A stretch of DNA of 64,000 nucleotides from Brevibacillus panacihumi W25 (GTDB taxonomy: Bacteria; Bacillota; Bacilli; Brevibacillales; Brevibacillaceae), in contig NZ_KI629782.1 in NCBI RefSeq assembly GCF_000503775.1, positions 1,542,045-1,606,044 on the forward strand. The letters run 5' to 3'. Numbering within the stretch: position 1 is the first letter of the stretch; each line of letters begins with the position of its first letter. The translations under genes and the position numbers were made by a program. This document shows, piece after piece, positions 34,136-59,507 of the stretch. The notes beneath the pieces are model-generated. The model was given only the letters and a program-made list of their open reading frames with translations. It ran no database searches and had not been told where the DNA came from.

Positions 34136-34150
34136 AAGGCGGTTCTCTTT
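34121..34150. terminator. Bidirectional terminator at the end of mobB
   Basis: AACCGCCTTC-CTTA-GAAGGCGGTT, a 10-bp stem, followed on the plus strand by CTCTTT and on the minus strand by TATTACG. It overlaps the end of the GNAT remnant. Confidence 0.7.
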
Positions 34151-34652
34151 AACGCAGCTTTCGTATAAAAGCGGCAAGCCCGCTTGCGTCATCGATGAAA
34201 AAATGCGGCAGATCCGCATATACCTCGTCACGCCAATGGACAATGCCTGCCACGTTGGTCAGCTCCGGCAGCAGCTCCCGGTGTTCCGCTTCCCGGATGA
34301 GCAAGAGCTTCGGATAAGCCTCCCGTTTGAATCCTTCTACCAGCACCAGTTCGACACCTGCCTGACCCATTCGATCGATGAGCGCAGCCAGCGGCACGGG
34401 ACGTTGTTCGATCCAGGCTGTCTTCGTCTGTGACGTGATGGCGACTAGCGAAGCGCCTGCCTCGCGATAACGCCAGGTGTCTTTTCCCGGCTGGTCAATC
34501 TCAAAATCATGCCCGCCATCATGTTTGATCACCCCGACTCGCATGCCCTCCTGCTCAAGCAGCGGAATGAGCTTGGCCAACAAAGTCGTTTTGCCCGTGT
34601 TGGCGTATCCCACCACTTGCATCACAAGCGGTTTCTTGTGTTCGTCGGTCAA
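34149..34652 (-). CDS. mobB: Molybdopterin-guanine dinucleotide biosynthesis protein MobB
   Basis: 167 residues with P-loop VVGYANTGKTTLLAKLIPLL, GVIKHDGGHDFEID and DTWRYREAGA, VELVLVEGFKREAYPKLLLI, all typical of MobB. This GTP-binding adaptor assists MobA in attaching GMP to the molybdenum cofactor. TTG start at 34652 follows GAGGTG, which is part of the last codons of moeA; 3 nt separate the genes. Last gene of the fdhF-moeA-mobB run. Confidence 0.92.
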   Translation of the reverse strand: MTDEHKKPLVMQVVGYANTGKTTLLAKLIPLLEQEGMRVGVIKHDGGHDFEIDQPGKDTWRYREAGASLVAITSQTKTAWIEQRPVPLAALIDRMGQAGVELVLVEGFKREAYPKLLLIREAEHRELLPELTNVAGIVHWRDEVYADLPHFFIDDASGLAAFIRKLR

Positions 34653-34655
34653 GTC

Positions 34656-35915
34656 CTACACCTCTTCCCGCCAGCTTGGCTGAGCATGTACGATCACATC
34701 GACCAGCTCTCCAGCCTGCTTGCCACGCCCCCCGGCTGGAATGACGATCAGGCATTCGCTGTTTTTAAGTGTCCCCAGATTGCCTGCTTTATCGTTGAAG
34801 TCAGGCTGTGCGATCAAGACCCCGTCTTTTTGCAGCAGTCTGCCGCGCAAATAGCGAGGATGTGGACAAGGCTTCTCGTAGGGGCTGCCTAGCTGTGCCT
34901 TGATCGGTTCTAGTGAAACCTGCTTTTTTCCTGCCAGGCATTGCAGAGCGGGGCGTGCGAACAATTCATACCCGACAAAACAGGCTCCAGGATTGCCGGA
35001 CAAGGCGAGGACCGGTTTGCCCGACATCAGCAAGCCAGTCGTCGGGCTTCCCGGGCGCATAGCGATCCGGTTGAACAAGAGCGTTACCTCCGGTTCATCT
35101 GCCAGAGACGCAATGACATCGTAATCCCCTACCGATACTCCCCCGCTGCTGATCAGCAGATCCACTTCCCGGACGTAGCCCGTCATTTTTTGCTTCGCTT
35201 CCGCCAACTCATCGGGAAGAACCGGAAACAGCACGGGAATGCCTCCTGCCTCGGTGATCAGTGCGGCCAGCATCGCTGTATTGCTGTTGCGGATTTTTCC
35301 CGGTGCAAGCGGTTCATCGACAGCGACGAGCTCGATCCCGGTGGAGAGCAGCCCGACACGCGGCTTGCGGATGACACTCACCTGCGAATAGCCAAACGTC
35401 GCCAGTACGGCGATCGTCCCTGCATTGACCCGTTCACCCGCATGAGCCACGACAGTACCCTGCGCGATCTCCTCTCCGCGCCGGGAGAGATTTTCTCCGG
35501 GACGCAGGGCGCGTTTGATCCCGACGACCTCGGAGTGGACTCCCGGATTTTCCGTCTGTTCGAACATGATGACCGCGTCTGCTCCAGCCGGCATCATCGC
35601 CCCGGTCATGATTCGCGTGGCGCACCCAGGGTCGACCGGGATGCGCGGTACTTGACCGGCGGCGACCGTCTCTACCACCCGCAAGTATACGGGCTGATCG
35701 ACAGCGGCATGAACAGTGTCTGCGGCTTTCACGGCAAACCCGTCCAGTGGGGAGCGGTCAAAAGGCGGCATGTCGCAGGTGGCGATCACATCATGCGCCA
35801 AGATCCTTCCGTACGCCTCCCCGAGCTCTACCTGCTCCTCATCCAGCTTTTGCAGTCTTGCCAATAGCTCCTGCAAGGCTTCCTCCACCGTCTTCATCTG
35901 TCGTGAAAAACGCAT
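34656..35915 (-). CDS. moeA: Molybdopterin molybdenumtransferase MoeA
   Basis: 419 residues starting MRFSRQMKTVEEALQELLAR (ATG 35915 after GGAGGAG; an upstream GTG/ATG reading lacks a site). Shows PPFDRSPLDGFAVKA, RIMTGAMMPAGADAVIMFEQ, the MoCF_biosynth domain VGLLSTGIELVAVDEPLAPG-KIRNSN, ISSGGVSVGDYDVI, and ALSGNPGACFVGYELF. MoeA inserts molybdate into adenylylated molybdopterin. Placed directly after the molybdenum enzyme gene. Confidence 0.94.
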   Translation of the reverse strand: MRFSRQMKTVEEALQELLARLQKLDEEQVELGEAYGRILAHDVIATCDMPPFDRSPLDGFAVKAADTVHAAVDQPVYLRVVETVAAGQVPRIPVDPGCATRIMTGAMMPAGADAVIMFEQTENPGVHSEVVGIKRALRPGENLSRRGEEIAQGTVVAHAGERVNAGTIAVLATFGYSQVSVIRKPRVGLLSTGIELVAVDEPLAPGKIRNSNTAMLAALITEAGGIPVLFPVLPDELAEAKQKMTGYVREVDLLISSGGVSVGDYDVIASLADEPEVTLLFNRIAMRPGSPTTGLLMSGKPVLALSGNPGACFVGYELFARPALQCLAGKKQVSLEPIKAQLGSPYEKPCPHPRYLRGRLLQKDGVLIAQPDFNDKAGNLGTLKNSECLIVIPAGGRGKQAGELVDVIVHAQPSWREEV

Positions 35916-35965
35916 CTGCTGCTCCTCCTTCTGTCTGTCACCAGGTCGTCCGTCCATTTCAACTG

Positions 35966-38314
35966 TCAGCCTACGTTCACATCCAGATCTTCAATCCGTT
36001 TTTCGACGTATTGGAGGTCTTTGTTGGCGTGAAACCTGTCGGCCTTCTCTATTTTAACCGCTGTATTGTATTCCGGAATTCCAGCGTACTTCTCGTACAC
36101 GCCCTTGGGAATCAGCACGTTGCCCTCCGGCCAGTATACCTGGATATTCCCGCGTTTTGTTGCCTCATACTTGGCCCGTCCCTGGAAGGTTCCATGGGCG
36201 TTGTAGACGACCACATTTTCCCCATCCGCAATGCGCAGCTCGCGCGCATCGTCCGGGTGGATCAGCACATCGTAGCGGTCCGCATTGTTGAACGGGTCTG
36301 TCTTGCCGTACACCATCGAGTTGAACTGCTTGCCGCGACGCGTCGTCACATAGAAGTGGCCCTGCGGCTTTTTCAGGTCCGGTACTTCGATCGCCAGCAG
36401 ATTGGCGCGGCCGTCCGCTGTCGGGCAGATCCCGCCTTCACAAAGCCAGGCTCCTCCCCATTGGAAGACATCGCCGCGATTTTTCAAATGCTGGATGCCG
36501 TCGTAGTTGGGATTTGCCTTGGCAATTTCTTCGCGAATCTGTTGCGCATTGTCAAAATGCATCAGATGCTTTTTCTGCGGGTAGACGCGCGCTGCGAGGT
36601 CGACATAGATCTGCCACTCCGCACGCGCCTCCTCAATCCGCGGCCCTTCCACCTCAGCGCTGAAGTAAACCATCCGCTCCGTGCTGGTAGAAGTGCCTCC
36701 ACCCGGCTGCTCGTAGCGTGTCATCGCGGGAAGAATGATGACTTCCTCCCGGGCATCAACCAGCGTAGAGGTATTGAAGATAATATCCTGGTGCACGCGC
36801 AGTTCGACGCTCTCCAGACATGTCTTGATAAAATCGGGATTGGGCATCGTCTCCAGGAAATTGCCCCCGCTGGTGTAGAAAAGCCTCGTCTTGCGTTCGT
36901 GTCCCTCCGGCAGCAAAGCATTTTCGATGCTGACACCGACAATATCTCCCTGCCATTTCGGAATCGAAAAGCCCCACAGCTTCTCGATTCGATTCCAGCT
37001 TTTCTCTTCAAAATCACCGCCAGGCAAGCTGAACGGATCTGCTCCCATCTCGCCGGAGCCTTGCACCCCGGAGTGTCCGCGAATCGGCATGACGCCGCAG
37101 TGCTTCCGGCCGATAAAACCGCGCAGAATCGCCAGGTTGGCTACCTGTGAGATGTTGTCCGTACCAAAGCGATGCTGGGTCAGTCCCATGCTCCAGACGA
37201 ACACACCCGACTTGGAGCGGGCCAGCAGCAGGGCAAAGTCCTTCATCCGCTCCCGGCTGAGACCGGAGGATTCCTCCAGTACCTTCCATTCCAGGCTTTT
37301 GACATGCGCTCTCAATTCTTTCAGCCCATTGGCATGCTGACTGACAAAATCGCGATCAATCGCCGATCCCGGCTTCTCGTCCTCCATCTCGAACCAGATC
37401 TTCATGACACCGTTCATAAAAGCGATGTCTCCGCCGATGTTCACCTGGTAAAACTCGTCTACGATCTTGGTTCCAAACATGGCGCTTTCCGAGATGGACG
37501 GGATCCAGTACTTCTCCATCGCAGGCTCCCTGTAGGGATTGATCAGGATGATTTTCGTCCCGGCCTTTTTGGCGGCATACATGTACTTGGTGGAGACAGG
37601 CTGGTTATTGGCAGGCACCGATCCCCAGAAGACGAGGACGTCGGTCCCGATCCAGTCCTGATAATTGCAGCTGGACGCCCCAATCCCCAGCGAGCGCTTC
37701 AAAGCTGTCTTGCTCGGCGAATGGCAGATGCGGGAAGCGTTGTCGATGTTGTTCGTGCCCAGAAAACGGGCCATTTTCGCCGCTGTATAGTAGACTTCAT
37801 TGGTGATTCCCCGAGAAGTAAGGAAAAAAGCGAGCTGTTTGGGGTTGATTCCTTTGATTTTGCTGGCGATGCGGTCCAGCGCCTCATTCCAGCCAAGACG
37901 CGTAAACTTCTTTTCACCCGGCTTGCGCGACAGCGGATACGGGATCCGTCCCAGCTGGCGAAGCTCCACGCTGGACATCTCGCGCAGCACATCAACGTCC
38001 TCCAGCCATTTCGGCTCGATGGCGGGCATGGTGTTGAGCCGCAGGACATTGAGCCGCGTGGAACACAGATGTGGTCCTGTCAAAGTCTGGTCGTACAAGC
38101 CCGATACGCCGAGTGCGCAACCATCGCAGACCCCTTGCGTCAAAATCCGATAGGCATATCCGAGATTATCCCGGTTCTCATACACGACCTTCATCGTGTC
38201 GCGGATATGGTGGGGCTTGATTTTGCCCATTCCCATCGGCATCCACGACGCCCATAGCGATGGCTTCCATGAAGTGTCCAGTTTGATCGGTCCCTGATGT
38301 CTCGTCTTTCCCAT
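35966..38314 (-). CDS. FdhF/YdeP-family molybdopterin oxidoreductase (formate dehydrogenase-like)
   Basis: 782 residues. N-terminal TQGVCDGCALGVSGL holds the Cys pair usual in YdeP-type proteins; the classical four-Cys 4Fe-4S cluster of NarB/FdhF is reduced. Molybdopterin-binding blocks include TDVLVFWGSVPANNQPVSTK, GLTQHRFGTDNISQVANLAI, MPIRGHSGVQGSGEMG and the C-terminal NAHGTFQGRAKY barrel. NASRICHSPSKTALK has a Cys at the position used as metal ligand. FdhD, MoeA, MobA and MobB nearby fit a bis-MGD formate dehydrogenase-like enzyme; YdeP homologues are also tied to acid resistance. Expression passes through leader RNA A. Confidence 0.88.
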   Translation of the reverse strand: MGKTRHQGPIKLDTSWKPSLWASWMPMGMGKIKPHHIRDTMKVVYENRDNLGYAYRILTQGVCDGCALGVSGLYDQTLTGPHLCSTRLNVLRLNTMPAIEPKWLEDVDVLREMSSVELRQLGRIPYPLSRKPGEKKFTRLGWNEALDRIASKIKGINPKQLAFFLTSRGITNEVYYTAAKMARFLGTNNIDNASRICHSPSKTALKRSLGIGASSCNYQDWIGTDVLVFWGSVPANNQPVSTKYMYAAKKAGTKIILINPYREPAMEKYWIPSISESAMFGTKIVDEFYQVNIGGDIAFMNGVMKIWFEMEDEKPGSAIDRDFVSQHANGLKELRAHVKSLEWKVLEESSGLSRERMKDFALLLARSKSGVFVWSMGLTQHRFGTDNISQVANLAILRGFIGRKHCGVMPIRGHSGVQGSGEMGADPFSLPGGDFEEKSWNRIEKLWGFSIPKWQGDIVGVSIENALLPEGHERKTRLFYTSGGNFLETMPNPDFIKTCLESVELRVHQDIIFNTSTLVDAREEVIILPAMTRYEQPGGGTSTSTERMVYFSAEVEGPRIEEARAEWQIYVDLAARVYPQKKHLMHFDNAQQIREEIAKANPNYDGIQHLKNRGDVFQWGGAWLCEGGICPTADGRANLLAIEVPDLKKPQGHFYVTTRRGKQFNSMVYGKTDPFNNADRYDVLIHPDDARELRIADGENVVVYNAHGTFQGRAKYEATKRGNIQVYWPEGNVLIPKGVYEKYAGIPEYNTAVKIEKADRFHANKDLQYVEKRIEDLDVNVG

Positions 38315-38374: not shown

Positions 38375-38530
38375 CGAAAAAACCACCATGAGACGTCCCT
38401 TGTCCAAAGGATAAGAGTGCGTTCACGGTGGTTGCTACGGCAGGTTCGCTACCTAGTCTCCTCAGCGTGTCTGTCTGTTGCGAAGCCCCATTGTCTAACC
38501 GGTGAACAGGACCGCTGCTTCGTGTAGATT
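38375..38530 (-). ncRNA. Leader RNA A upstream of the fdhF-like gene: conserved core plus terminator
   Basis: On the minus strand the intergenic RNA has two AGCGNNCCTG blocks (38516-38507 AGCGGTCCTG and 38450-38441 AGCGAACCTG), CACCGGTT after the first, and GCTGAGG before the second. An intrinsic terminator follows: AACCACC...GGTGGTT then TTTT, 38433-38375. The same order of motifs occurs in leader B before the OFA transporter gene. The layout is that of a transcription-attenuating riboswitch or protein-dependent attenuator. I cannot match it to the Moco, SAM, T-box, ZTP or manganese classes. Confidence 0.65.
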
Positions 38531-38896
38531 CTAGGGCTCATTTTTAAATTTCTTTTCAATGTCCCGATCAAACACGAAGATAGACATCCCAAAGTCGCGT
38601 TCAATGTCAATATCGAGGAATAGTTCGACGAATTTTGCTCCAAGGAATTCTTCCATGTCTACTGGCTGATTATTGCGGTACATTTCCTTGACCATCTCAG
38701 TCCGTGCCGCTCGCAGGGTCTGCTTTCCGTCTTCCCAAGTAGCAATGAACTTTTCCACCGGCGAGAGGTTGCCCTCCATTTCGCAAATAGCCCAGTTTTT
38801 GCAAAAGGTGGTATTGATCTTGCTTGGTCCCTTTCCCATATGACGCTTTCGGTACGCTCTGACCAGATTGCTAAATTCTGCTTCGTATTTATTCAT
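38531..38896 (-). CDS. DUF2294 (MpsC-like) protein
   Basis: 121 residues: EAEFSNLVRAYRKRHMGKGP-SKI, GNLSPVEKFIAT, GKQTLRAARTEMVKEM and LGAKFVELFLDIDIERDFGM-SIFVFDRDI are the DUF2294 pattern. These small soluble proteins often accompany formate dehydrogenase genes in Bacillales; their role is unknown. Its stop is immediately followed by leader RNA A, and it begins 50 nt after the OFA transporter gene, so transporter, DUF2294 and fdhF-moeA-mobB may form one operon. Confidence 0.8.
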   Translation of the reverse strand: MNKYEAEFSNLVRAYRKRHMGKGPSKINTTFCKNWAICEMEGNLSPVEKFIATWEDGKQTLRAARTEMVKEMYRNNQPVDMEEFLGAKFVELFLDIDIERDFGMSIFVFDRDIEKKFKNEP

Positions 38897-38946
38897 CGCG
38901 GCAAGTCACCTTTATATTTTCATTCTTACTATGACTTTACCATTGA

Positions 38947-40227
38947 TCAACTCGCGAGTTCAACAGCGTTTTCGTTTCGTTTCGCTTCCTCTTGCAGTTT
39001 TTTGATATCCAGTCGGATGATCAACGAGATCACAAGCGCTACCACGAACATCGCTGCGAAGATCGACAATGTGCCTGTGTAGCTGCTAGTCGTTTTGTGT
39101 ACCCAAGCGGCAAAGATCGGACCTGCCAGACCAGCCGCAGCCCAAGCCGTCAGGATGTACCCATGAATGGCACCCAATTGCTTCGTGCCAAACAAGTCGC
39201 CGATGTACGCCGGGATCGAAGAGAAGCCCCCGCCGTAGCAAGTCATGATGATGAACATCGCCACCATGAACAGGATCGGATTGGTCAACGCAGGAAGCAG
39301 GAAGAACAGAACTGCCTGGATGATAAAGAATGCCGTATACGTATTAGGACGGCCGATATAGTCAGAGAAGGAAGCCCAGCCGATGCGGCCAGCACCGTTG
39401 AACAATCCATTCAGACCAACCATGAGAGCTGCAGTCGCGACAGACATCCCGACCATCTCCTGCGCCATTGGCGACGCTACGGAAATGACGGCAATCCCAC
39501 AGGTTACGTTGATGAACAGCATCAGCCACAAGAGATAAAAGCGGCGTGTTTTCACTGCTTCGTTGGCAGTCAGTTGGCACAGATCTTTCTTGATTTGCTT
39601 TTTGCCCGCGTTCGCATCGGCAGAAAAGCCTGCCGGAACCCAATCTTTTGGAGGCGGAGCGAGGTATTGCGCAGAAGCGAACATCACAACAAAATAGATG
39701 ATACCCAAAATGTAGAATGTATTCGCAATCCCTACGCTATCGATCAGCATATTCATAATCGGACTGGCAATCATCGACGCGAACCCGAAGCCCATGATCG
39801 CAAGCCCAGTCGCCAAACCGCGGCGGTCAGGGAACCATTTTACCAGTGTCGATACAGGTGTGATGTAGCCGACACCAAGCCCGATCCCGCCAAGGACCCC
39901 GTACGTGATGTACAGAAACGGCAGGCTTCCCATGCTGGTTGCCAGCCCGGCACCCACAATCCCGGTACCGAAGAAAATCGAAGCCAGAATACCCGCTTTT
40001 CTCGGGCCGTGTTTTTCTACGTAATGACCCAGGAACGCTGCAGACAATCCCAGGAACAGAATTGCGATACTAAACGTAAACTGGATGTCTGGCAATTCCC
40101 AGCCAAATTGCTGCTGGATGGGTTTGGTGAATACGCTCCAGGCGTATACCGAACCGATGGAGAGGTGAATTCCTACCGCAGCCAAGGCAATCAGCCAACG
40201 GTTTTTCACTTTTTGCTCCATAAACAT
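38947..40227 (-). CDS. OFA-family MFS transporter (oxalate/formate antiporter-like)
   Basis: 426 residues, twelve helices, starting MFMEQKVKNRWLIALAAVGI-HLSIGSVYAWSVFTKPI, the characteristic OxlT/YhjX start. Other OFA signs are GVLGGIGLGVGYITPVSTLVKWFPDRRGLATGLAIMG and SFSDYIGRPNTYTAF (in WASFSDYIGR). The family moves oxalate, formate or other small carboxylates. Association with a formate dehydrogenase-like enzyme suggests formate or oxalate as cargo; that is inference. AAGGAG lies before two in-frame ATGs (40227 and 40221). Preceded by leader RNA B. Confidence 0.87.
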   Translation of the reverse strand: MFMEQKVKNRWLIALAAVGIHLSIGSVYAWSVFTKPIQQQFGWELPDIQFTFSIAILFLGLSAAFLGHYVEKHGPRKAGILASIFFGTGIVGAGLATSMGSLPFLYITYGVLGGIGLGVGYITPVSTLVKWFPDRRGLATGLAIMGFGFASMIASPIMNMLIDSVGIANTFYILGIIYFVVMFASAQYLAPPPKDWVPAGFSADANAGKKQIKKDLCQLTANEAVKTRRFYLLWLMLFINVTCGIAVISVASPMAQEMVGMSVATAALMVGLNGLFNGAGRIGWASFSDYIGRPNTYTAFFIIQAVLFFLLPALTNPILFMVAMFIIMTCYGGGFSSIPAYIGDLFGTKQLGAIHGYILTAWAAAGLAGPIFAAWVHKTTSSYTGTLSIFAAMFVVALVISLIIRLDIKKLQEEAKRNENAVELAS

Positions 40228-40277
40228 TCATCTCCTTCGTATAAGTTCTAAGAGAAGCCTATACGGCTCTCTTGCAA

Positions 40278-40518
40278 AAAGAAAAACTGCTGAGTTCACC
40301 CATCTTTTTTCCAAAAGCAAAGGAAAAAAGGGAAAATGGGTGAAACACAGCAGTTAATCATCAGCAGGAACGCTACCTCAGCATCAACAGACAAGTGTTA
40401 TGTTGCCTATTCAATTCAGATTGGCCACAAAAGAACCGGCGACAGGAACGCTATCCCGCGTCAATTTGTGTCCAATAAGTGGGGAAATCATGAAAGTATT
40501 GTGACAACCCCAACCTTA
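40278..40518 (-). ncRNA. Leader RNA B upstream of the OFA transporter gene
   Basis: From a promoter at 40525-40553 the RNA contains AGCGTTCCTG twice (40452-40443 and 40374-40365), GCCGGTT after the first block, a GCAACA...TGTTGATGC hairpin, GCTGAGG before the second block, then an intrinsic terminator with CAGCAGTT-type arms (AACTGCTG...CAGCAGTT plus an ACCCAT/ATGGGT inner stem) and TTTTC at 40285-40278. It shares core order with leader A. With its promoter it fills the 40228-40634 gap. Confidence 0.68.
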
Positions 40519-40553
40519 CATAGTATACTACCATGTAAGCGTTCACTCGACAA
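40515..40553 (-). promoter_or_regulatory. Promoter of the OFA operon overlapping an inverted repeat
   Basis: On the minus strand TTGTCG (40553-40548), 17-bp spacer, TAGTAT (40530-40525). CTTACAT and ATGTAAG (40515-40521 and 40533-40539) form an inverted repeat around the -10, a possible operator shared with the divergent fdhD. Confidence 0.55.
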
Positions 40554-40634
40554 TATTTCTTACTAAAAAATGTTGGATCAAAATTAAGAAGAACCCACTC
40601 AATACAGTGCTTTTCTGTGAGCAAGGAGGAAGAC

Positions 40635-41450
40635 ATGGCAGACCTGACCCATACAATCAGCAGACCCGTTCTCAAAATATCGACTGACCAGCACGCCTGG
40701 GAAGAGGATGAAATCGTCACGGAATATCCCCTGACCATCTTCTTGAACGACGAAGAGTTCGCCACCATCGTCTGTACACCGGCGGATTTGGAAGAGATGG
40801 TAATCGGTTTTTTGGCTGCGGAAGGCGCGATCAAGCAATACGACGAGATCAAGCAGCTCACCATCGATGAAGCGCAGGGCTTCGCCTATGTGGACCTGCA
40901 TCAGAAAACCCAATTGTCGCAGAGCTTTTTTTCCAAGCGGCGCATCACCTCCTGCTGCGGCAAAAGCAGGCAGTCTTTTTACTTTTTCAGCGATGCGCGC
41001 ACAGCCAAGCCCGTGGAAGGGACCACTACGATCACCCCTGCCCAAGGCATACGCCTGATGCAGGAGCTGCAATCCACATCTGAGATTCATCGCCAGACGG
41101 GAGGTGTCCATAACGCGGCGCTTTGCACACCGGACGGCCCTGTGCTGCAATACTCGGATATCGGACGCCATAACGCGCTGGATAAAATCTACGGAGAATG
41201 TCTGCGAAAAGGCATCTCCACGCAGGATAAAATTCTCGTGTTTAGCGGCCGCATTTCCTCGGAAGTCCTGTTAAAGGCGGCGAAGATCGGTGCGGGCATC
41301 ATTCTCTCCAAATCCGCGCCTACGGAGCTTGCCTTGCAGTTGGCCGAAGAGCTGAACATTACGGCTGTTGGCTTCGTCCGCAACGGCAAAATGAATGTCT
41401 ATACGCACGCGCAGCGGATTCAGCTGGATGAGCGTGAAACAGCCGATTAG
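40635..41450 (+). CDS. fdhD: Formate dehydrogenase accessory sulfurtransferase FdhD
   Basis: 271 residues. Shows EYPLTIFLNDEEFATIVCTP-ADLEEMVIGFLAAEGAI, the sulfur-carrier Cys region RITSCCGKSRQSFYFF, TGGVHNAALC and YSDIGRHNALDKIYGECL, then FSGRISSEVLLKAAKIGAGI. FdhD passes sulfur to the molybdenum site of formate dehydrogenases. ATG at 40635 follows AAGGAGGAAG; an in-frame GTG at 40617 lies upstream of the site. Divergent from the transporter operon; a GNAT gene follows after 20 nt. Confidence 0.94.
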   Translation: MADLTHTISRPVLKISTDQHAWEEDEIVTEYPLTIFLNDEEFATIVCTPADLEEMVIGFLAAEGAIKQYDEIKQLTIDEAQGFAYVDLHQKTQLSQSFFSKRRITSCCGKSRQSFYFFSDARTAKPVEGTTTITPAQGIRLMQELQSTSEIHRQTGGVHNAALCTPDGPVLQYSDIGRHNALDKIYGECLRKGISTQDKILVFSGRISSEVLLKAAKIGAGIILSKSAPTELALQLAEELNITAVGFVRNGKMNVYTHAQRIQLDERETAD

Positions 41451-48868: not shown

Positions 48869-49066
48869 TTTCACGATGAGGATAGAGGTCGCGGCTTTTA
48901 TAGGAATCTGTACGAGATACAAAAGATATCGAGGACTACAGAAGAGGGAAAAGCTGCCGAAGCCCGCACTGCATCTTTTGTGCAAACGGGCTGGGGCTGT
49001 ACTCGAAAGGGACAGAACTGTCACGTTGGCGAGCCTGCGCTGACGTGTTGTGCTATCTTCCGTGAA
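48869..49066 (+). ncRNA. Lysine riboswitch (L-box)
   Basis: TTCACG...GAGGATAG at 48869-48884 pairs with CTATCTTC-CGTGAA at 49053-49066 to close P1. Inside are AGAGGTCGCGGC, GGGAAAAGCTGCCGAAG, GGGCTGGGGCTGT and GGGACAGAACTGTCACG, the conserved L-box blocks. A terminator follows at 49088-49127. High lysine should favour termination and reduce lysine permease expression. Confidence 0.93.
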
Positions 49067-49186: not shown

Positions 49187-50626
49187 ATGTCTAACCAACA
49201 GCAACTCAAGCGCGGTCTGAAAGCCCGCCACCTGACGATGATTGCCATCGGCGGATCGATCGGTACAGGATTGTTTCTCGCCAGTGGCGGCTCGATTCAT
49301 TCCGCAGGTCCGGGCGGTGCCTTGGTCGCTTACATCGCGATCAGCATCATGGTGTACTTTTTGATGACAAGCCTGGGGGAAATGGCTGCCTTTATGCCGG
49401 TTTCCGGCTCCTTCAGCACCTATGCCACCCGGTTCGTCGATCCATCTCTCGGCTTTGCATTGGGCTGGAATTACTGGTACAACTGGGCCATCACGATTGC
49501 GGTAGAGCTATCCGCCGCCGCGCTGATCATGAAATACTGGCTGCCAGATGTGCCGTCGATGATCTGGAGCGCCTTGTTCCTGCTGCTCATGTTCGGACTA
49601 AATCTATTATCCGTAAAAGGTTACGGTGAATCAGAATACTGGTTTTCCCTGATTAAAGTAGTGACAGTCATTCTCTTCATTATCTTTGGGATTCTGATGA
49701 TTTTTGGCATCATGGGCGGTGAATCGGTCGGGTTCCAAAATTTCACCAAGGGTGATGCTCCTTTCAGCGGCGGTTTCATGGCGATGCTTGGCGTCTTCAT
49801 GATCGCCGGCTTCTCCTTCCAGGGGACCGAGCTGGTGGGGATCGCAGCCGGGGAGAGCGAAGATCCTGCCCGCAACATTCCACGCGCCATCCGCCAGATT
49901 TTTTGGCGCATCCTGCTCTTCTACATTTTGGCGATTTTCATTATCGGACTGCTCGTCCCATACGACAATCCGAATCTGATCAGCGGGGATCTGACCGACA
50001 TCGCCATCAGTCCGTTTACCATCGTCTTTGAAAAAGCAGGTTTTGCCTTCGCTGCTTCCGTCATGAACGCAGTCATTCTCACCTCCGTCCTGTCTGCGGG
50101 GAACTCGGGGATGTACGCTTCTACACGGATGCTCTGGAATCTCGCGAAGGAAGGCAAAGCACCGAAGATTTTTGCCAAGCTGACACGCCACGGCGTACCG
50201 ATCAACGCTTTGATCTTGACGGCCCTGATCGGCGCATTTGCTTTCTTGTCCTCCTTGTTCGGAGATGGCGTCGTCTACGTCTGGCTGCTAAACGCTTCCG
50301 GGATGTCCGGCTTCATCGCCTGGCTGGGAATCGCCATCAGCCACTACCGTTTCCGCAAGGCTTTTCTGGTGCAAGGACGCGACCTGCGGGAATTGCCTTA
50401 CAAGGCGAAGTGGTTTCCGTTTGGCCCGATCTTTGCCTTCATCATCTGTCTGATCGTCATTATCGGTCAGAACTACGGGGCATTCCTCGGCGACACCATC
50501 GACTGGTACGACGTGGCTGTCTCCTACATCGGCCTGCCGCTCTTCCTGATCGTCTGGCTGGGGTATAAATGGAGCAGGAAGACGAAAGTGGTGGCATTGG
50601 AGCAAGTAGACTTGCGTCAGGAATAG
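49187..50626 (+). CDS. lysP: Lysine-specific amino acid permease (APC family)
   Basis: 479 residues, twelve helices. LKARHLTMIAIGGSIGTGLF is the APC substrate-binding start, followed by MAAFMPVSGSFSTYATRFVD, GWNYWYNWAITIAVELSAAA, FSFQGTELVGIAAGESEDPA and NAVILTSVLSAGNSGMYAST, all close to E. coli LysP. The lysine riboswitch directly upstream makes lysine the substrate with good confidence. The ribosome site before ATG 49187 is weak. Confidence 0.92.
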   Translation: MSNQQQLKRGLKARHLTMIAIGGSIGTGLFLASGGSIHSAGPGGALVAYIAISIMVYFLMTSLGEMAAFMPVSGSFSTYATRFVDPSLGFALGWNYWYNWAITIAVELSAAALIMKYWLPDVPSMIWSALFLLLMFGLNLLSVKGYGESEYWFSLIKVVTVILFIIFGILMIFGIMGGESVGFQNFTKGDAPFSGGFMAMLGVFMIAGFSFQGTELVGIAAGESEDPARNIPRAIRQIFWRILLFYILAIFIIGLLVPYDNPNLISGDLTDIAISPFTIVFEKAGFAFAASVMNAVILTSVLSAGNSGMYASTRMLWNLAKEGKAPKIFAKLTRHGVPINALILTALIGAFAFLSSLFGDGVVYVWLLNASGMSGFIAWLGIAISHYRFRKAFLVQGRDLRELPYKAKWFPFGPIFAFIICLIVIIGQNYGAFLGDTIDWYDVAVSYIGLPLFLIVWLGYKWSRKTKVVALEQVDLRQE

Positions 50627-59194: not shown

Positions 59195-59507
59195 AAAAAC
59201 GCCCCAGCAACCGGACTCGGGCATACACCTGGTTCCGATTGCTGAGGCGAACGATCGCGGTACCACTCAGCTTTTTTGTCCCTCTCACAAAAGACAAACT
59301 CATGCAGTCAACTAAGACGTGCGCCCGATAACGTGGGCCAGCCGCTGCCTTCTACGAAATGCGCAACAGGTTCAAAGGCAGTGCTCCAAGGTGGCGTTCA
59401 AAAAGAGTTTGCGACGGCCCTTTCAGCATGCAGGCCGCTCTCTTTGCGTCAAAGCTCTCTTCTACTTTCCTTTTCACAGCGTTGTTCAGTATGGCTTTGC
59501 TTGAATG
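59195..59507 (-). ncRNA. T-box leader, alanine specifier (GCC)
   Basis: The T-box sequence TGGTACCGCG lies at 59265-59256 in the RNA. Stem I carries the specifier loop GAAC-GCC-ACC with GCC, an alanine codon, at 59395-59393. The terminator, GCCTCAGCAA with TTGCTGGGGC then TTTTT, occupies 59248-59195. Uncharged tRNA-Ala should stabilise the antiterminator and switch on alaR-alaT. This leader fills the 400-nt gap. Confidence 0.93.

Follow-up and report, generated by a model that had tools for sequence, protein, structure and literature searches.

A putative Bacillales family of leader RNA hairpins associated with terminators and genes of formate metabolism

Small RNA hairpins that act on transcription termination are known in several forms. 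In Bacilli, the ribonucleic antiterminator (RAT) hairpins of LicT, SacY and GlcT contain internal loops and form an antiterminator that overlaps the terminator. Tandem small hairpins can also be riboswitches, as in guanidine-II (mini-ykkC), which carries CG-containing loops (ACGR tetraloops) and responds to a small ligand, and the molybdenum cofactor (Moco) riboswitch likewise lies near genes for molybdenum enzymes. We know of no RNA-level regulator of formate sensing. Here we describe two leader RNAs in a 64,000-nucleotide (nt) stretch of the Brevibacillus panacihumi W25 genome (contig NZ_KI629782.1, positions 1,542,045 to 1,606,044; hereafter the window): leader A (about 40282-40470, minus strand), upstream of an MFS transporter gene, and leader B (about 38377-38528, minus strand), between a DUF2294 gene and an FdhF/YdeP-family gene. 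The closest described relatives are the targets of ANTAR proteins, which, in the sections of two reports that deal with them (PMC3369931, PMC8934654), consist of a pair of small hairpins that bear conserved caps and are joined by a linker, the second embedded in a terminator, with a single hexaloop as the minimal form, and serve whole regulons. On balance we favour the explanation that leaders A and B belong to a cis-regulatory RNA family of Bacillales, a transcription-termination switch of a formate regulon that would be read by an RNA-binding protein.

Both leaders contain two hairpins, each capped by the element AG-[NGNN(N)C]-CU. The original prediction, made from the sequence of the window, listed the blocks AGCGNNCCTG, YRCCGGTT, GCAACA, GCTGAGG and a second AGCGNNCCTG, and both leaders carry them, on the minus strand and in the listed order, with a long hairpin and a T run directly after them. 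Its view that the blocks are conserved holds for the hairpin caps and stems, CCGGTT being the 3' side of hairpin 1, whereas GCAACA and GCTGAGG are not retained in the non-Brevibacillus relatives examined. The leaders are, as it proposed, related to each other and linked to terminators, but the conserved unit is a single hairpin that occurs once or twice per leader, and the DUF2294 gene sits between the two leaders. The extended fold of hairpin 2 in leader A reaches further into the 5' arm of the terminator by pairing, and the outer stem of hairpin 2 in leader B is weaker in the window than among relatives. There are seven copies of AGCGNNCCTG in the 64-kb window (mean 1.86 and maximum 6 in 100 shuffles); four make up the two leader pairs, one is within the transporter gene and two are elsewhere. 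That the doubled, terminator-linked arrangement exceeds chance is borne out by its recurrence in relatives.

The window transporter is 100% identical to one in Brevibacillus panacihumi. Loci of 80 transporter relatives were collected and leaders with the doubled motif were picked; after removal of one row (L086:2570), 57 were aligned by MAFFT (alignment A1). With no structure supplied, RNAalifold finds both hairpins in this alignment, with double changes at 6 of 12 pairs and a one-base 3' bulge in hairpin 1. In a structure that we named ourselves, with outer stems added, 17 of 25 pairs vary on both sides, a number reached in 9 of 500 shuffles, and neither the count of 151 cells nor the covariation score is matched by any of the 500. 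Paired cells amount to 85.8% in the named structure and 33-50% with slid partners, and the covariation result is similar once chemoreceptor leaders are added (36 of the 57 A1 rows plus 8 new rows). The covariation upholds the claim that these are structured RNAs. Among 150 unique hairpins the loop has 5 nt in 136 (all 57 first hairpins and 79 of 93 second or single ones) and 6 nt (NGNNNC) in 14. The 5-nt loops carry G at position 2 in 135 of 136 and C at position 5 in all 136, within a search pattern that accepted only G or A at position 2 and only C or T at the last, and that required AG and CTG. Every hairpin also includes an internal loop and a conserved bulge of 1 nt. Leader B is, in many loci of Bacillaceae, reduced to a single hairpin, GGCACUUGGYAG-loop-CUGYUAAAGACUAACC, and a terminator; one hairpin can therefore suffice. 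A generic single-hairpin alignment (A2, 78 of 92 rows), made after four spurious reference rows were dropped, was not used as a model, as MAFFT had offset the A and B types by one base.

The leaders apparently constitute an undescribed family of hairpin switches. At the gathering threshold Rfam 15, Moco family included, gives no match over the window leaders or over the leaders of 12 other loci, and down to E 10 the window leaders have only sub-threshold matches of microRNA, small nucleolar RNA and similar types, in agreement with the earlier failure to place them in a known riboswitch class. Within the library searched, no paper mentions a formate riboswitch, a search on DUF2294 returned unrelated matter only, and one on antiporters with riboswitches returned apparently unrelated matter. 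The main text of the motif-discovery papers examined does not name the family under the terms searched, the lone match being the unrelated fhsA motif.

Hairpin 2 looks like an antiterminator, because its 3' arm doubles as the 5' arm of the terminator. Covariance-model matches were taken regardless of terminators, and an overlap of at least 3 nt between hairpin 2 and the terminator 5' arm is present in 60 of 67 matches (E 0.01 or less, the window excluded) and in 48 of 61 matches in 40 picked loci. Pooled, the matches with such an overlap number 108 of 128; among control hairpins the figure is 16 of 172, the control being a random 15% draw of hairpins with an AG/CU stem and another loop, 63 of them terminator-like. 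Given this overlap, hairpin 2 and the terminator should be mutually exclusive, and the mutually exclusive terminator and antiterminator of a cis-acting attenuator are thus present as predicted structures. Over all 223 AGCGNNCCTG copies of 120 loci, with hairpin-1 and coding copies included, overlap is seen in 121. Two other counts were set aside: an earlier figure of 84 of 92 is circular, since the 92 (from which the four spurious rows had likewise been dropped) were selected for a nearby terminator, and an in-locus control built from other AGCGNNCCTG copies (overlap in 33 of 43) consists mostly of sub-threshold leaders; in the loci of the 67 matches, 27 of 32 such copies lie within 420 nt before a target gene. 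The linkers of many leaders also contain a word resembling a catabolite-responsive element (cre), TGDAAVCGNTT, found in 24 of 40 linkers from loci L024-L096 (one Brevibacillus among the 40; shuffled mean 0.014) and in none of 17 Brevibacillus-type linkers of earlier loci. This word suggests that catabolite repression, presumably through binding of CcpA, may be combined with antitermination.

The original prediction had named in advance the lack of further copies in related genomes as grounds for refuting it, and the covariance models find many. Within the class to which the window belongs, model R1 (E 0.01 or less) matches 47 of 398 genomes; it also matches 79 of 193 genomes of one family of that class and, in a phylum sample of 348, the window's own genome alone. 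A second model, R2, rebuilt with chemoreceptor leaders included, matches 79 of 397 genomes of one order (E 0.01) and, at E 1 or less, 40 of 40 genomes, all chosen for a prior R1 match. The genome samples partly overlap, and the class, family and order counts are lower bounds because few candidates per genome were scored and the filters were stricter. One match in the family sample (G568) is doubtful, as it sits at the end of an open frame. All named loci with a leader (50 of the 80) are from Bacillales, and leaders A and B are the only R1 matches (E up to 1) in the 5.5-Mb host genome.

The genes behind the leaders form a narrow set. Forty loci were picked, not at random, from the order-sample matches, the first 20 favouring unlinked or weak matches, and were tallied by hand. 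The first recognised gene downstream of their 61 matches is a transporter in 30, FdhF/YdeP in 22, DUF2294 in 3, formate dehydrogenase alpha in 1, an sCache_3 chemoreceptor in 4 and another gene in 1, so that 60 of the 61 precede one of the five named types. In three operons FdhF/YdeP is replaced by a protein above the NCBI TIGR01591 (formate dehydrogenase alpha) cut-off. A dual leader in G058, separate from such an operon, stands ahead of a gene resembling formate dehydrogenase alpha that is read as two frames, each below the whole-protein cut-off, and a single hairpin in G029 stands ahead of genes that by inspection resemble fdhD, moeA and moaA. Seven more leaders, from R1 matches, precede chemotaxis genes (L150, L151, L152, L153, L154, L155 and L159): EAL-CheW-receptor genes in L150 (by Pfam) and in L154 and L159 (by inspection), EAL and STAS genes in L151, and a receptor in L152, L153 and L155. 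We also note a regulator of about 451 amino acids with HTH_3 and TPR domains (Pfam on L150 only) that is divergent from the EAL-CheW-receptor operon in L150, L154 and L159. The transporter gene behind the leader appears only as a short frame in L139 (4147-4431), and formate dehydrogenase alpha is split over two frames in L133 (2057-4147).

The inducer is most likely formate or a formate-derived signal. The link to formate made by the original prediction gains strength from leaders that stand ahead of formate dehydrogenases of a different family and ahead of probable formate chemoreceptors, and molybdate or Moco, which it had also offered as ligands, would leave the chemoreceptor targets without explanation. 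Receptors of sCache_3 type are the targets in L150, L152, L154, L159, L195, L196, L198 and L209; that of L150 scores 120 bits with PF17202 (sCache_3_3) and 85 bits with Cache_3-Cache_2, four of the others were assigned by similarity to it and three by inspection. According to the parts of two papers that treat such receptors, formate is a ligand or stimulus of Cache_3-Cache_2/sCache_3 receptors in Pectobacterium, Pseudomonas syringae and Agrobacterium (PMC12501870), and binding of formate is also described for a gut sCache_3_3 receptor (PMC12415202). Residues R142, T145 and T158 of PacF, named in these parts (PMC12501870, PMC12415202), fit the pattern R-x-x-T...GT, which is present in seven of the eight sCache_3 receptors here, the eighth having NT for GT. 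The pattern may mark the binding residues; the aligned structure is 8py0.

The proposed mechanism builds on the covarying hairpins, the arm shared with the folded terminator and the target genes, all computed here, and adds to them an ON polarity, a formate signal and a protein reader, which we infer. By default hairpin 1 and the terminator would form and RNA polymerase would stop. In the presence of formate or a formate-derived signal, a factor acting in trans, in all likelihood an RNA-binding protein, would recognise both hairpins by their AG[NGNN(N)C]CU caps; the layout of hairpin 2 and the terminator suggests that the factor favours hairpin 2. Held in this way, hairpin 2 would capture the terminator 5' arm and so keep the terminator from forming. 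Read-through would then allow transcription of the transporter, DUF2294 and dehydrogenase genes and, elsewhere, of a chemoreceptor. Leader A would gate the operon and leader B would be a second, intercistronic gate before the dehydrogenase.

Several observations weigh against this explanation. The AG/CU cap pairs are invariant and so lack covariation support, and in 20 of the 128 matches the script saw no overlap, no terminator or no core. In the window, a consensus terminator scan, whose loop and stem limits are unsuited to them, listed neither leader terminator, so that both rest on folding, and a consensus promoter scan listed nothing upstream of leader A on the minus strand. The receptors of L153 and L155 have dCache_1 domains, not sCache_3, and in L194 (4023-4150, minus strand) a good dual leader (63 bits) stands before an open reading frame of 71 amino acids of no known kind. 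The label 'OFA' given to the window transporter is now doubtful: it scores 477.8 bits with an L-lactate carrier model (cut-off 320), falls below both oxalate/formate cut-offs and has the L-lactate transporter 6g9x as its nearest solved sequence. Since its model is for lactate and not formate, another monocarboxylate could be the signal. Among 24 leader-bearing genomes, ANTAR proteins give no match at E 0.001 in 10 and none over the cut-off in 12, and CAT_RBD gives no match in 7; neither being universal, both were dropped as general readers.

If the remainder of this explanation is granted, an RNA-binding protein is the reader that we would choose first, with somewhat better than even weight, because the anatomy of the leaders resembles that of ANTAR targets. 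The small hairpins, short conserved caps, variable linker and single-hairpin variants before fdhF are all like those of a protein site. It is considerably less probable that each hairpin itself binds formate or a close small carboxylate without a protein, one or two small aptamers serving as ON switches for transport, oxidation and chemotaxis. Such a direct riboswitch would suit a regulon centred on the uptake, oxidation and probable sensing of one small molecule, the patchy occurrence of both antiterminator protein families, and the bulge and internal loop kept in each hairpin. However, the conserved nucleotides are few for an aptamer, a pocket is not evident, and in 21 of 101 rows (alignments A1 and A3, which contain partly the same leaders) the two loops do not both keep their CG step, so a CG:CG kiss like that of guanidine-II is not general.

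A special case of the protein reader, which we consider doubtful and a little less probable again, is that DUF2294 (PF10057) is itself the RNA-binding antiterminator. DUF2294 is present in 49 of 50 transporter loci with a leader and in 1 of 30 without (formate dehydrogenase in 47 of 50 and 5 of 30), and among 193 genomes of one family the leader-type DUF2294 accompanies a model match in 77 of 79 cases; of the 114 genomes lacking a match only two carry it, and both have a single-hairpin leader. It is retained even where it and the leader are on separate contigs or hundreds of kb apart (seven genomes examined), and in G562 (L159 7670-8029, minus strand) it adjoins the only leader found there, before the chemoreceptor operon. 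However, a chemoreceptor leader occurs in G483, where DUF2294 gives no match at E 1e-10 (in the other exception, G568, it is the leader match that is weak and doubtful), and a DUF2294 paralogue of 44-53% identity occurs in formate dehydrogenase operons without a leader in 10 of 12 loci examined, the leader being sought by pattern. Most formate dehydrogenase operons of the paralogue loci L249-L259 carry fdhD. Because the paralogue sits in leader-free operons, DUF2294 may be a formate dehydrogenase accessory whose co-occurrence with the leaders is indirect. Its predicted fold (pLDDT 91) has no clear match (best Foldseek E 6.4e-3, best VIA Z 7.3). We note that its Pfam name, MpsC, may mislead.

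A reading of the cap as a modified A1/G4 dual hexaloop, recognised by an ANTAR protein, is improbable. The tandem hairpins with the second inside the terminator, the A and G at positions 1 and 4 of AGCGNN, the layout as in EutV targets and the ANTAR matches in 14 of the 24 leader genomes are consistent with it. Yet the remaining ten genomes gave no match, the Y(-1)-C closing pair that the hexaloop needs cannot form in 136 of the 150 hairpins, those with 5-nt loops, and only 6 of 12 six-nt loops checked could close one. Least credible of all is that a transcription factor uses the repeats as operators at the DNA level and that they are not RNA structure: AGCGNNCCTG is a direct repeat, but the stems covary, the second cap is fixed relative to the terminator arm and the loop length differs by one between conserved bases.

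The coordinates of the leader elements and their neighbours are collected in Table 1.

Table 1. Leader elements and adjoining genes, in window coordinates.
Feature	Position	Strand	Basis or remark
Leader A hairpin 1: outer stem CACAAA/TTTGTG, internal loop, CGG/CCG, 1-nt bulge, GATAG/CTGTC, loop CGTTC	40426..40470	minus	RNAfold on the single sequence; RNAalifold and covariation, 57 leaders
Leader A hairpin 2 (putative antiterminator): GTTGAT/ATTAAC around AG[CGTTC]CT hairpin	40353..40388	minus	covariation, folding
Leader A intrinsic terminator, 5' arm overlaps hairpin 2	40282..40355	minus	predicted fold, -33.9 kcal/mol
Leader B hairpin 1: outer stem TCTA/TAGA, loop CGGTC	38494..38528	minus	
Leader B hairpin 2 (putative antiterminator)	38430..38466	minus	inner part 38435-38456, CTAGGTAG[CGAAC]CTGCCGTAG, conserved 1-nt bulge
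Leader B intrinsic terminator, 5' arm AACCACCG overlaps foot of hairpin 2	38377..38433	minus	predicted fold, -25.3 kcal/mol
MFS transporter ('OFA' in the original prediction; best model SfMCT L-lactate transporter)	38947..40227	minus	profile scores
DUF2294/MpsC-family protein (PF10057), 121 amino acids, between the two leaders	38531..38896	minus	
FdhF/YdeP-family molybdopterin oxidoreductase (TIGR01701)	35966..38314	minus	
moeA, molybdenum cofactor	34656..35957	minus	
mobB, molybdopterin guanine dinucleotide	34149..34652	minus	
fdhD, formate dehydrogenase sulfurtransferase, divergent	40617..41450	plus	

Elsewhere in the window there are a lysine riboswitch (RF00168, 82.4 bits, 48875-49063, plus strand), upstream of an open reading frame of 479 amino acids (49187-50626) that by inspection resembles an amino acid permease, and a T-box leader (RF00230, 105.7 bits, 59240-59486, minus strand).

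With its narrow and legible regulon, an RNA family spread over many Bacillales would provide a direct handle on formate sensing. Should the RNA alone read formate, the smallest carboxylate, it would represent a new ligand class, and should a protein read the RNA, it would probably belong to a new antiterminator family. DUF2294 and the 'OFA' transporter are also flagged as parts of formate physiology.

Set beside the known systems, the family is nearest to the ANTAR targets, yet differs from them. The window leaders do not match the Moco riboswitch, either at the gathering threshold or down to E 10. Guanidine-II differs in its loops, those here being NGNNC, with no Rfam match and with CG steps that are not always kept. 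Like the LicT-type RAT hairpins, these hairpins overlap a terminator and have internal loops, and many linkers carry cre-like words; unlike them, most A-type leaders have two hairpins, the sequence is different and CAT_RBD is missed in 7 of 24 hosts. The dual-hexaloop RNAs read by EutV, NasR and AmiR share the tandem hairpins before a terminator with the second overlapping it, which we looked for and found. They differ in that single-hairpin forms precede fdhF in many leader loci here, the loop is NGNN(N)C closed by AG/CU and Y-G and in most hairpins cannot be an A1/G4 hexaloop, the stems are longer, with an internal loop and a bulge, and 10 of the 24 hosts have no ANTAR match. In its predicted working, the family is thus similar to an ANTAR dual-hairpin antiterminator, yet it departs from one in the hexaloop of most hairpins and in the protein of many genomes.

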